This document shows, in pieces, positions 17,860-49,265 of a stretch of 64,000 nucleotides of DNA. Source of the stretch: Fibrobacter sp. UWB16. GTDB lineage: Bacteria > Fibrobacterota > Fibrobacteria > Fibrobacterales > Fibrobacteraceae. The stretch lies in the NCBI RefSeq assembly GCF_900215325.1, contig NZ_OCMS01000005.1, positions 124,001 to 188,000 on the forward strand, in the 5' to 3' direction. Position 1 is the stretch's first letter, and each line of letters begins with the position of its first letter. The position numbers were made by a program, and so were the translations under genes. The notes under the pieces are model-generated. The model did not search any database. It was given only the letters and a program-made list of their open reading frames with translations, and was not told the DNA's origin.

Positions 17860-17863
17860 TAAC

Positions 17864-17931
17864 GTCACCCCGGTTGCATCGTCACCCCGGTTGCATCGTC
17901 ACCCCGGTTGCGTCGTCACCCCGGTTGCATC
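17864..17931 (+). repeat. Four tandem copies of a 17-bp unit (GTCACCCCGGTTGCATC)
   Basis: Units at 17864-17880, 17881-17897, 17898-17914 and 17915-17931 are identical except for one A-to-G in the third. The next bases, GTCATCCTGAGCGTAGCGAAGG, are another dispersed repeat that shares the GTCA start, so the array looks grown from the 5' end of that element. Confidence 0.9.
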
Positions 17932-18100
17932 GTCATCCTGAGCGTAGCGAAGGATCCAGTCACGTCTCGCCATGTGTCACCCTGAACGGAGTCGAATGGC
18001 TCTAGTAACTGTGACTTTCCACTCTTGTCATTCCGGCCTCCGAGCCGGAATCCCCTTACGTATTTACGAATGGAGATGCCCGCCTTCGCGGGCATGACAA
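17932..18100. repeat. Cluster of dispersed repeats between rpsA and coaBC
   Basis: This gene-free stretch holds, in order: GTCATCCTGAGCGTAGCGAAGG-ATCCAG (17932-17959), a GTCACCCTGAACGGAGTCGAATGG variant (17976-17999), GTCATTCCGGCCTCC-GAGCCGGAATCCCC (18029-18057), and GAGATGCCCGCC-TTCGCGGGCATGAC (18072-18097, inverse orientation). I see no gene or RNA in 17860-18200. Confidence 0.75.
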
Positions 18101-46835: not shown

Positions 46836-47834
46836 TTAGCGTTTTTGGAACTTTGCTCCGAAAACGAACGTGCGGCTTTCGCTTGGCTTGATGACGATTA
46901 AATCGCGGTGATGGTTTAAAGTATCGGGTTCCGCGGTCATCGGCTCGATAGCGATGCTCATACGGTCAGGCGGAGTGTAAATCTGGATGGCGTTATATTG
47001 TTCTTTGCCGGCCTTTTGCCAAATTTGGAGGGATTTGGTATCGCTTTTGAGTTCTACGGAGGCTAAAATGTTCTCAAAATTTTTCTTGTTTTTGAGAACG
47101 TAGGGGGCTTCGCCCTGGTTTAAGCAGAAACAATCGTTGATGAACTCGTCATTGATGAGCCTACCGCCCACGAAACGGGTATCCGGCTTGAATTCGCCCG
47201 TCGGGATGTCTGCCTTGTCGAGAATCGCGAGGTTCGATTCCGGGAGCGTCATTTGGAGACCGTTGATCTTTTCTCCGAGCGTGTAATAGGGGTGCCAGCC
47301 TTCGGAATAGGGGAGGTCGCCCTTGCCGATATTCGTGACGGTCGATTCGACGGTGTAGCTTTCTCCGGTGAACGTGATCTTGTTCACGGCACGGAAGGGG
47401 AACGGGAATCCTGTAAATGCACCTGGCCAGTCGATACCGAATGTTGCGACGCATTTTTCGCTATCGCTTTCGAAACTCAGGAGGTTCCATTCCTTGTTCT
47501 GCAAAAAGCCGTGGAGAGCGTGCGGTGCCCAGCTCACATTGTTGACGAGCTGGTAGTCGTTGCCGTTCCAGTTGAATTTGGCGTAGGCTACGCGTCCTGG
47601 GAAGGGGGCGAGTCTGCAACCTGCGTTTGTGTCGGGGCCCATTTTGAAAATGTCGTCGCCTTCGCGGTAGCCGAAAAGGAGGTCTTGAAGCTTGCCGTTA
47701 TTGTCGGGGATGCGCCAGGCGTTGAGGCCTGCGCCGTAACCGCTCAAAATTTCAAATTCAGCGCCGTCGTCACGCTGCAAAACAAAGCACTGCACAGTGC
47801 CCAAAGGACGGGAAATAAGTTTGAAGTTGCTCAT
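46836..47834 (-). CDS. Aldose 1-epimerase (galactose mutarotase) family protein
   Basis: Interconverts alpha and beta anomers of hexoses. The protein (332 residues, cytosolic) has the family beta-supersandwich signs: FEILSGYGAGLNAWRI, CRLAPFPGRVAYAKFNWNG (binding Arg), HALHGFLQNKEW (His pair), SEGWHPYYTLG (His) and SIAIEPMTAEPDTLNH (catalytic Glu region). A TAAATT box lies 6 nt before the ATG, and only 33 bp separate it from the divergent mnmE start. It may process galactose or mannose released by the neighbouring mannanases, but the exact sugar cannot be read. Confidence 0.88.
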   Translation of the reverse strand: MSNFKLISRPLGTVQCFVLQRDDGAEFEILSGYGAGLNAWRIPDNNGKLQDLLFGYREGDDIFKMGPDTNAGCRLAPFPGRVAYAKFNWNGNDYQLVNNVSWAPHALHGFLQNKEWNLLSFESDSEKCVATFGIDWPGAFTGFPFPFRAVNKITFTGESYTVESTVTNIGKGDLPYSEGWHPYYTLGEKINGLQMTLPESNLAILDKADIPTGEFKPDTRFVGGRLINDEFINDCFCLNQGEAPYVLKNKKNFENILASVELKSDTKSLQIWQKAGKEQYNAIQIYTPPDRMSIAIEPMTAEPDTLNHHRDLIVIKPSESRTFVFGAKFQKR

Positions 47835-47867
47835 GTTTTTAATTTAGCAATTACTATCTTTGCTATT
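47835..47867. promoter_or_regulatory. 33-bp divergent gap between the mutarotase gene and mnmE with two start-proximal -10-like boxes
   Basis: Minus strand: TAAATT (47846-47841) ends 6 nt before the mutarotase ATG. Plus strand: TATCTTTG, with TATCTT at 47855-47860, ends 7 nt before the mnmE ATG. There is no room for leaders and no Shine-Dalgarno on either side. Confidence 0.5.
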
Positions 47868-49265
47868 ATGGATTCTCAGACGATTGTTGCTCCGATGACG
47901 CCTGCGGGCGTGAGTGCCGTTGCCGCCATCCGCGTGAGTGGCTCGAAGGTGCGCGAAGTGGTGCGCCTTCTGTTCGGTGAATCGGCAATCAAGAATTTGA
48001 AGCCTCGCGAAGCAAAGCTTGCGACGGCTCGCGACTATCGTACAATGGTCGGCGATGACCGCGCGACAGCACTCGTTATCGATAGCCTCCTCTACATTTT
48101 TTTTGAAGGTCCGAATTCCTATACCGGCGAAGACGTGCTGGAACTTTACCCGCACGGAAACCCGATTATCGTCCGTGAACTGATTCAGGTCATCAAGAGC
48201 GTCGATGGCGTGCGCTTGGCAGAACCGGGCGAATACACGCGTCGTGCATTCTTGAACGGTCGCATGGACTTGGTGCAGGCGGAATCCGTTGCCGATGTGA
48301 TCCACAGTGCTAACCGTGATGAACTTAAGAACGCCCATCGCTTGCTCGGCGGTGCGCTCTCGAAAAAAGTCAAGACGCTCACGGAACAGGTCATGGATAT
48401 CTCGGCCCGCCTCGAATTGGATGTCGATTTCTCCGAAGAAGAAGCTGATCCGGATTATGCAACTTGGGGCGTGAAAATCTCTGCGATTCGCGAAAGCGTA
48501 GAATCCATTTTGAAAAGTTTTAAGGGCAAGGCGGCGGTCAGCCGTTTGCCGCTTGCTGTTTTGTACGGCGCTCCGAATGCGGGCAAGTCGAGCCTCGTGA
48601 ATGCGCTCCTCGGTGAAGACCGAATCCTCGTGAGTAACATCCCCGGCACGACCCGTGACTTTGTCGAAGTCCGCTTGTTCCTGGACGGGGGTGAGATCCG
48701 CCTTGTCGATACCGCTGGCATTGCCGAAAAGGCGACCGACGCGCTCGATGCCCTCAGCATGGAAAAAAGCCGTGAAATCCTCGCCGAAGCCGACATGAAG
48801 ATTCTGGTTCTCGATGGATCAGATGAGCGCGGCGCATCTTGTTATTCTGAGAATATAAAACCGGATTTTGTCGTCGTTTCGAAGAGCGACTTGGGCGCAT
48901 CTCGGCAGGGCGGCGCCTCTCGTCATCCTGAGCAAAGCGAAGGATCCAGTGAATCTCGCCTTCGCATTTCCTCCAAGACGGGTGAGGGGCTCGCGGATCT
49001 CAAGCGCGCCATGAACGCCGCTCTTTTTAAGAAAACTGAAAATTCCGAAGACCTCTGGATTACGAGCGAGCGCGAAAAGACCTGCCTCGAAGAAGCTCTT
49101 GCTGGCATCGACCGCGCACTTAACCTTATCCGCACAAATCCGGCGGTGGAACTTTTGGCTTTCGAAATGCAACTGGTGCGCCGTTCACTCCAGAGCATAA
49201 CGGGCGAAATCTCGTCCGAAGACGTTTTACAACAAATATTTGCGGGGTTCTGCATTGGAAAATAG
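47868..49265 (+). CDS. mnmE: tRNA modification GTPase MnmE
   Basis: With MnmG makes the 5-carboxymethylaminomethyl group on wobble uridine. The N-terminal tetrahydrofolate-binding domain (1-120, SRxx-like AIRVSG and GPNSYTGEDVLELYPHG) is followed by the helical domain and the inserted G domain: G1 GAPNAGKSSL near 226-235, G3 DTAGIAEK near 282-289, G4 SKSDL, and G5-like SSKTGEG. The C terminus is FCIGK, with the conserved Cys of the CIGK box. The ATG at 47868 is where homology starts; the open frame extends upstream to 47253 but is antisense to the mutarotase gene. A dispersed repeat lies in frame between G4 and G5. Length 465. Confidence 0.95.
   Translation: MDSQTIVAPMTPAGVSAVAAIRVSGSKVREVVRLLFGESAIKNLKPREAKLATARDYRTMVGDDRATALVIDSLLYIFFEGPNSYTGEDVLELYPHGNPIIVRELIQVIKSVDGVRLAEPGEYTRRAFLNGRMDLVQAESVADVIHSANRDELKNAHRLLGGALSKKVKTLTEQVMDISARLELDVDFSEEEADPDYATWGVKISAIRESVESILKSFKGKAAVSRLPLAVLYGAPNAGKSSLVNALLGEDRILVSNIPGTTRDFVEVRLFLDGGEIRLVDTAGIAEKATDALDALSMEKSREILAEADMKILVLDGSDERGASCYSENIKPDFVVVSKSDLGASRQGGASRHPEQSEGSSESRLRISSKTGEGLADLKRAMNAALFKKTENSEDLWITSEREKTCLEEALAGIDRALNLIRTNPAVELLAFEMQLVRRSLQSITGEISSEDVLQQIFAGFCIGK
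48922..48950 (+). repeat. Dispersed repeat inside mnmE (GTCATCCTGAGCAAAGCGAAGG)
   Basis: Encodes RHPEQSEGSS (residues 352-361) in the loop between G4 and G5 of the GTPase domain. Same class as 42062 and 17932, with ATCCAGT at the end. Confidence 0.85.

Follow-up and report, generated by a model that had tools for sequence, protein, structure and literature searches.

Leaderless genes of the TA-led kind carry, about 12 bp before the start codon, a TANNNT motif that is taken to be their -10 box, as described for 953 genomes (Zheng et al. 2011, PMC3160421). The main text of that survey does not contain the string "Fibrobact", and the taxa with leaderless genes in its section 7 include no Fibrobacteres. 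In the searchable literature, subscription papers and supplements aside, we found no report of a leaderless gene class of Fibrobacter.

In Bacteroidota, the -7 element of sigma-A (sigma-ABfr) reads TAnnTTTG (PMC6847099, PMC7366714, PMC9723704), and in Flavobacterium it extends from T-12 to G-5 relative to the transcription start (PMC6847099). Promoters of this type further include a -33 TTTG or TTG element, and their primary sigma is without region 1.1. Leaderless mRNAs are described there as few, with 5′ UTRs shorter than 10 nt making up 3.7% in B. thetaiotaomicron and 5.5% in F. psychrophilum (PMC6847099, PMC7366714, PMC9723704). Meanwhile, compact divergent transcription is known from bidirectional promoters that share a single -10 element, with divergent starts about 10-23 bp apart (Warman et al.; PMC12825309), and from the CR/M promoters of the EcoRV restriction-modification system. 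A leaderless C transcript has been reported for AhdI, while the EcoRV C transcript is not leaderless (PMC5333194).

Here, we analyze the gap between mnmE and a divergent aldose-1-epimerase (mutarotase) family gene in a 64,000-nt stretch, hereafter the window, from the genome of the rumen-type bacterium Fibrobacter sp. UWB16. Like the TA-led genes described in PMC3160421, this locus presents the TANNNT box at a fixed distance from the start codon, in a genome where such genes coexist with Shine-Dalgarno (SD)-led ones, whereas the box here takes the form TATnTTT(G) after a C and is footprinted gene by gene across the genus. As in the shared -10 promoters of PMC12825309, divergent transcription would be compact and polymerase binding mutually exclusive, but the gap contains two -10 boxes, and the predicted starts fall on the two ATGs, at a distance of 34 bp from each other. 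The EcoRV CR/M promoters are likewise overlapping divergent core promoters that couple two genes (PMC5333194); in contrast to that system, no regulator or operator was identified at the mnmE/mutarotase gap. The proposed kind of start site, TA-led and leaderless, is already known, and the locus would be one instance of a type found repeatedly in the Fibrobacter family and new there as far as we could find.

Results

Organization of the mnmE/mutarotase gap

Exactly 33 bp (47835-47867) separate the two start codons, and the gap contains two boxes, TAAATT at 6 nt from the mutarotase ATG and TATCTT at 7 nt from the mnmE ATG (5 nt when counted from the end of TATCTTTG). An SD core (GGAG, GAGG or AGGA) is absent from the gap for both genes. 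On these points, the coordinates, the motifs and the missing SD sites, a previous sequence-only reading of this DNA was correct (Table 1). The start codons themselves are backed by N-termini conserved in relatives, MDSQTIVAPMTPAGV in MnmE and the MSNFKLISRPLG type in the mutarotase, and the best segment of the window's mnmE is up to 97% identical to mnmE of Fibrobacter succinogenes and Fibrobacter sp.

Table 1. Features of the mnmE/mutarotase locus, in window coordinates
Feature	Position	Strand	Basis
Gene of the aldose-1-epimerase (mutarotase) family, 332 aa, with a probably leaderless mRNA in this strain	46836..47834	-	Pfam Aldose_epim, E 4e-40
Mutarotase ATG	47834-47832	-	Sequence
Predicted mutarotase transcription start, A of ATG	47834	-	Inferred
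Mutarotase discriminator AAAAAC, C at -1	47835..47840	-	Sequence
Mutarotase -10 box TAAATT	47846-47841	-	6 nt to ATG; TAnnTT at 6-8 nt in 36/46 distinct mutarotase upstreams
AT-rich 8-bp spacer GCAATTAC between the -10 boxes	47847..47854	.	Gives both promoters their upstream A/T tract
mnmE -10 box TATCTTTG	47855..47862 (hexamer TATCTT 47855-47860)	+	TAnnnT at 6-8 nt in 48/48 loci scored
mnmE discriminator TGCTATT	47861..47867	+	47867 is T, the -1 pyrimidine; low information at -6 to -2
Predicted mnmE transcription start, A of ATG	47868	+	Inferred from box-to-ATG spacing and genus-conserved pyrimidine-A step
mnmE ATG	47868-47870	+	Sequence
mnmE coding sequence, 465 aa, predicted leaderless	47868..49265	+	TIGR00450 over cut-off, TrmE_N, MnmE_helical; conserved N-terminus
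Would-be mnmE -35 hexamer CATGTT at 17-bp spacing, over mutarotase start codon	47832..47837	+	Geometry only; unlike TTGACA
Would-be mutarotase -35 hexamer at 17-bp spacing, over mnmE start codon	47864..47869	-	Geometry only; unlike TTGACA

The same reading had argued that the gap leaves no space for leaders and that both mRNAs are hence leaderless. This argument does not suffice alone because a promoter may lie within the adjoining gene, and where intergenic DNA is AT-rich, a lone -10-like box close to an ATG carries little weight. A sigma-70 consensus scan (TTGACA/TATAAT), a consensus that may not fit this lineage, returned no promoter in the gap, and folding the initial 40 nt of mnmE and of the mutarotase as RNA showed nothing unusual (z 0.90 and 0.15).

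The mnmE box is conserved across Fibrobacter

Our search recovered 64 mnmE loci, 48 of which (L002-L047, L062 and L065) come from Fibrobacter or Fibrobacteraceae, making 49 with the window. Scoring took in 48 of these 49 and left out L028, which has an N-terminal extension and by eye presents TATCTT, 7 nt and ATG, with T at -1. TAnnnT occurs 6-8 nt before the ATG in all 48 scored loci (TAnnTT in 44), which are related sequences and hence not 48 independent tests. The -1 position is C or T in every scored locus and in all 40 distinct upstreams, and an SD core precedes mnmE in none of the 48. Because TAnnnT is kept at the same place in every scored locus, the mnmE box goes beyond chance; moreover, it is retained in 13 of the 48 loci without any divergent mutarotase found.

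Across the 40 distinct 26-nt upstreams, information content stays between 0.02 and 0.48 bits from -60 to about -20 and amounts to 0.9-2.0 bits at most positions of -18 to -7, covering an A/T tract, a C and TATnTTT, with less at -15 and -10 and up to 2 bits per position within -13 to -7. It then falls to 0.01-0.12 bits at -6 to -2 and returns to 1.03 bits at -1 (24 C, 16 T). Within the A/T tract upstream of the box, positions -18 to -16 are conserved in mnmE relatives, and the box genes of the window's own genome are A/T-rich there as well, while a conserved -35 element was sought before mnmE in the relatives and none was found. Transcription starts prefer a pyrimidine-purine step, and this footprint of box, unconstrained spacer and pyrimidine before A is what a -10 box initiating at the A of the ATG should leave. 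The leaderless reading of mnmE is well supported by this comparison.

Near and far boxes upstream of the mutarotase

The mutarotase was matched in 76 of 80 genus genomes, and upstreams were taken from the best 30 of the 76 matching genomes plus the mnmE-search loci, yielding 46 distinct sequences. TAnnTT lies 6-8 nt before the ATG in 36 of them, invariably with a pyrimidine at -1 (36/36). The remaining 10 carry CTAAATT or CTAGATT 33-40 nt from the ATG (T at -1 in 5, A in 4, C in 1) and include most of the window's nearest relatives, with the exception of G001, which is arranged like the window. A short mutarotase leader, of roughly 26-34 nt, seems to be present in most of these nearest relatives.

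In a tree of the 46 sequences, the window's mutarotase sequence is nested in the far-box group, and the near and far states need at least four changes; this tree was built by a quick method, leaves several forks open and does not allow the direction of change to be inferred. The tight mutarotase promoter of the window may have arisen by loss of a short leader. Since the window is nested among far-box relatives, the leaderless state of its mutarotase is less certain than that of mnmE and its support is moderate; the proposal of leaderless mRNAs from overlapping, back-to-back promoters, which is well supported for mnmE, is for the mutarotase probable in this strain.

The compact gap is sporadic

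In the 35 loci with both starts, the ATG-to-ATG gap measures 30, 33, 34, 43, 43, 43, 59, 60 and 63 bp, followed by values from 93 to 1318 bp, and the 33-bp gap was seen, among examined loci, in the window and in G001 (L088). Both boxes (mnmE TAnnnT, mutarotase TAnnTT) lie at 6-8 nt in 30 of these 35 loci. Because the gap runs from 30 to 1318 bp while the box stays in place, the compact arrangement is sporadic and no conserved design; judging from these sequences, the 33-bp spacing is lineage-specific and the conserved part is the box at the start codon.

Selection for the compact divergent layout was considered and rejected, since in our own-genome sample both boxes occur in 3 of 53 divergent ATG/ATG pairs at most 400 bp apart, and no more than chance pairing can be claimed. 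Separately, G125, a genome from another genus, contains at L168:1299-1331, away from its mnmE, two divergent genes whose ATGs are separated by 33 bp and each preceded by a box at 6 nt.

A box-at-ATG class in the window's own genome

We sampled 859,742 bp of the 3.56-Mb genome (the window plus 40 stretches), in which a custom codon-usage script called 583 gene starts, 541 of them ATG. TAnnTT precedes these 541 ATGs 27 times at 6 nt, 33 times at 7 nt and 10 times at 8 nt, vs about 7 times per position at 12-44 nt, such that 60 occurrences at 6-7 nt compare with about 14 expected, an excess of 46 of the 541 ATG genes (about 8.5%). The looser TAnnnT is found 82 times at 6-8 nt vs about 43 expected from flanking positions, and internal in-frame ATGs give scaled TAnnTT counts of 1.6, 2.0 and 0.4 at 6, 7 and 8 nt.

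None of the 70 box genes (6-8 nt) presents an SD core, compared with 17 of the 72 genes in which a different AT-rich hexamer takes that position (Fisher p 5e-6), a control included because the box fills part of the SD window, and with 210 of 471 non-box genes. The -1 position is a pyrimidine in 25 of 27 genes with the box at 6 nt, 27 of 33 at 7 nt and 3 of 10 at 8 nt vs 256 of 471 others. Given that last low count, the 8-nt class looks largely like background, and some box genes are chance; box at 6-8 nt and -1 pyrimidine coincide in 55 of the 541 genes. A first, smaller sample (459,742 bp, 288 ATG genes, 37 with the box), called with an earlier version of the gene caller, gave a similar picture, with an SD core in 0 of 37 box genes. 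Over the whole genome, TATNTT-N1-20-ATG occurs 2827 times vs 1800 for the reversed pattern, a count that does not resolve distances. The 16S 3′ end reads GGATTACCTCCTTTAAGG and keeps CCTCC, so the anti-SD is intact, and the box class appears, from these sequence counts, to serve roughly a tenth of genes beside ordinary SD-led ones.

The consensus of the first-sample boxes is A/T-rich, then C (26/37), then TATATTTG-like, and the form of the class in Fibrobacteraceae is (A/T-rich)-C-TATnTTT(G)-N4-6-ATG. TAnnTTTG at 4-6 nt precedes 21 of the 541 ATGs vs 0-3 per position at 12-44 nt; TATCTTTG in the window agrees with this -7 element, and the mutarotase box is without the terminal TTTG. Any -33/-35 element is weak at most: TTG lies 20 nt before the box in 6 of 37 box genes of the first sample. 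The genome encodes six Sigma70_r2 proteins, and the three larger ones scanned are 270-283 aa long with no region 1.1 match; a PDB search with one sigma factor returned SigA/RpoD/RpoS/RpoH-type chains and was uninformative on promoter type.

The TAnnTTTG core is common to these promoters and to Bacteroidota sigma-A as described in PMC6847099, PMC7366714 and PMC9723704, and the spacing of the Flavobacterium -7 element from the transcription start agrees with the box-to-ATG spacing in our genome (PMC6847099). The Bacteroidetes of these sources are without SD sites, in contrast to the genome studied here, which uses SD alongside its estimated excess of box-at-ATG genes.

The box beyond the genus

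In the same family outside the genus, TAnnnT lies 6-8 nt before the candidate mnmE start in 9 of 12 loci (L117-L125; TAnnTT in 8) and is missing from L127, L128 and L134. The -1 position of these nine is a pyrimidine in five (L118, L121, L122, L123 and L125) and a purine in four (L117, L119, L120 and L124, the last with its box 8 nt from the start and G at -1), so the pyrimidine rule of the genus is not general at mnmE. In L121, L122 and L123, a GTG start seems to follow right after the -10 box, and these may be leaderless GTG starts.

At class level, the five mnmE loci with a start found (L126, L129, L131, L132 and L135) include none with the box and two with an SD core, no mnmE start having been located in L130, L133 and L136, which fall outside this count. 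In the class-level relatives (L048, L050 and L052), yidC directly precedes mnmE in the same orientation (3 of 3 tested upstream genes match 60KD_IMP), its end lying no more than about 65 bp from the matched start of mnmE. Fibrobacter mnmE, with its own promoter box, may have left an older yidC operon.

Beyond the genus, the counts come from samples of one genome per taxonomic level, which only sketches how far the trait extends. In G125 (another genus of the same family; 265 ATG genes), TAnnTT at 6-7 nt occurs 33 times vs 2.9 per position, an excess of 27; the -1 base is a pyrimidine in 34 of 36 genes at 6-8 nt, and none of the 36 box genes has an SD core, compared with 4 of 20 AT-rich controls (p 0.013). 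G140 (from the same class; 256 genes) has 11 vs 1.4 per position, an excess of 8, and an SD core in 0 of 13 vs 5 of 27 (p 0.15), whereas in G104 (same phylum, another class; 169 genes) the signal was undetected (3 vs 0.55, p 0.12; SD core in 0 of 5 vs 2 of 7). The box-at-ATG class recurs in the other sampled genus of the family and is weaker in the class-level genome.

Discussion

We consider it likely, from the sequence comparisons above, that two separate divergent core promoters stand back to back in the 33-bp gap and that both mRNAs are leaderless. The -10 boxes TAAATT (minus strand) and TATCTT (plus strand) would share the AATT-containing tract in the 8 bp between them. From TATCTT, polymerase would start at 47868, and from TAAATT at 47834, in each case on the A of the ATG or no more than one base away, and the mRNAs would begin with AUG, being engaged by ribosomes via the start codon without SD pairing. 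RNA polymerase covers several tens of bp, and with the boxes 8 bp apart the two promoters should therefore exclude each other: the upstream half of each would overlie the -10 box and start codon of the other, preventing simultaneous occupancy.

An alternative that we regard as unlikely is that only mnmE is leaderless, with the mutarotase transcribed from elsewhere, for example from inside mnmE, or carrying a short leader, and TAAATT being a remnant of the relatives' box. It draws on the CTAAATT found 33-40 nt from the ATG in most nearest relatives and on the TAAATT of the window's mutarotase, which reads TATCTT in most mutarotase relatives. Yet a TAAATT 6 nt from the ATG, together with C at -1, fits the class geometry exactly, CTAAATT at 6-8 nt also precedes other genes of the same genome in the first sample, and 36 of the 46 distinct mutarotase upstreams place their box at this distance. 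The two separate promoters also have to be weighed against a single symmetric bidirectional promoter with one shared -10 element, as in E. coli, which the rough symmetry of the gap about AATT (boxes at 47841-47846 and 47855-47860) could suggest; here, however, two distinct boxes lie 8 bp apart, the predicted starts are 34 bp apart rather than the 18 (also 10 and 23) bp given in PMC12825309, and the start codons are up to 1318 bp apart in relatives, making this very unlikely.

Finally, the boxes could be -10 elements with transcription starting several bases further in and a downstream ATG in use, or chance occurrences in AT-rich DNA, given how often TAnnnT turns up in intergenic DNA (about 43 times over three positions in 541 genes). 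The place conserved in 48 of 48 scored loci between little-conserved flanks, the sharp 6-7 nt peak with its -1 pyrimidine bias, and the conserved N-termini of MnmE and mutarotase, which back the start codons, speak against this and leave it very unlikely.

Extending the reading of two back-to-back leaderless promoters to the family, we lean, by a little over even chances, to the view that Fibrobacteraceae run two parallel initiation systems, one SD-led and the other leaderless, the latter serving about a tenth of genes from a Bacteroidota-like TAnnTTTG box at the start codon. Divergent leaderless promoters could then fuse into switches of about 30-43 bp, running from one start codon to the other, in which polymerase serves one gene at a time, and small indels between box and ATG would move genes between the leaderless and leadered states, as at the mutarotase.

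Fibrobacter is a cellulose degrader, and its lineage would combine SD genes with a leaderless gene class that is apparently substantial; the -10 consensus of this class could help in gene-start correction and in making Fibrobacter expression tools. Besides, the mutarotase start region, with its repeated near/far changes, offers a natural experiment on switching between leaderless and leadered states.

Additional observations concern repeats and gene copies. Degenerate, intergenic repeats of 7-bp period were noticed by eye upstream of mnmE or the mutarotase in L006, L087, L104, L036 and L005; their units differ between species, and the CTATCTT box looks in phase with them in some loci. The own-genome sample of 860 kb holds four strong 7-bp arrays, all intergenic (L070:6633-6674, L076:2322-2363, L147:15314-15355 and L156:5352-5393), compared with none in the 400-kb samples of G125 and G140, and intergenic DNA as a whole shows a slight lag-7 signal. 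Two different mnmE-like genes, 67% and 65% identical to the window's, lie on two contigs of Fibrobacteraceae MAG72 (L042 and L043), by duplication or in a mixed bin. Elsewhere in the window, positions 17863-17935 contain a 17-bp tandem repeat, CGTCACCCCGGTTGCAT, in 4.3 copies at 96%.
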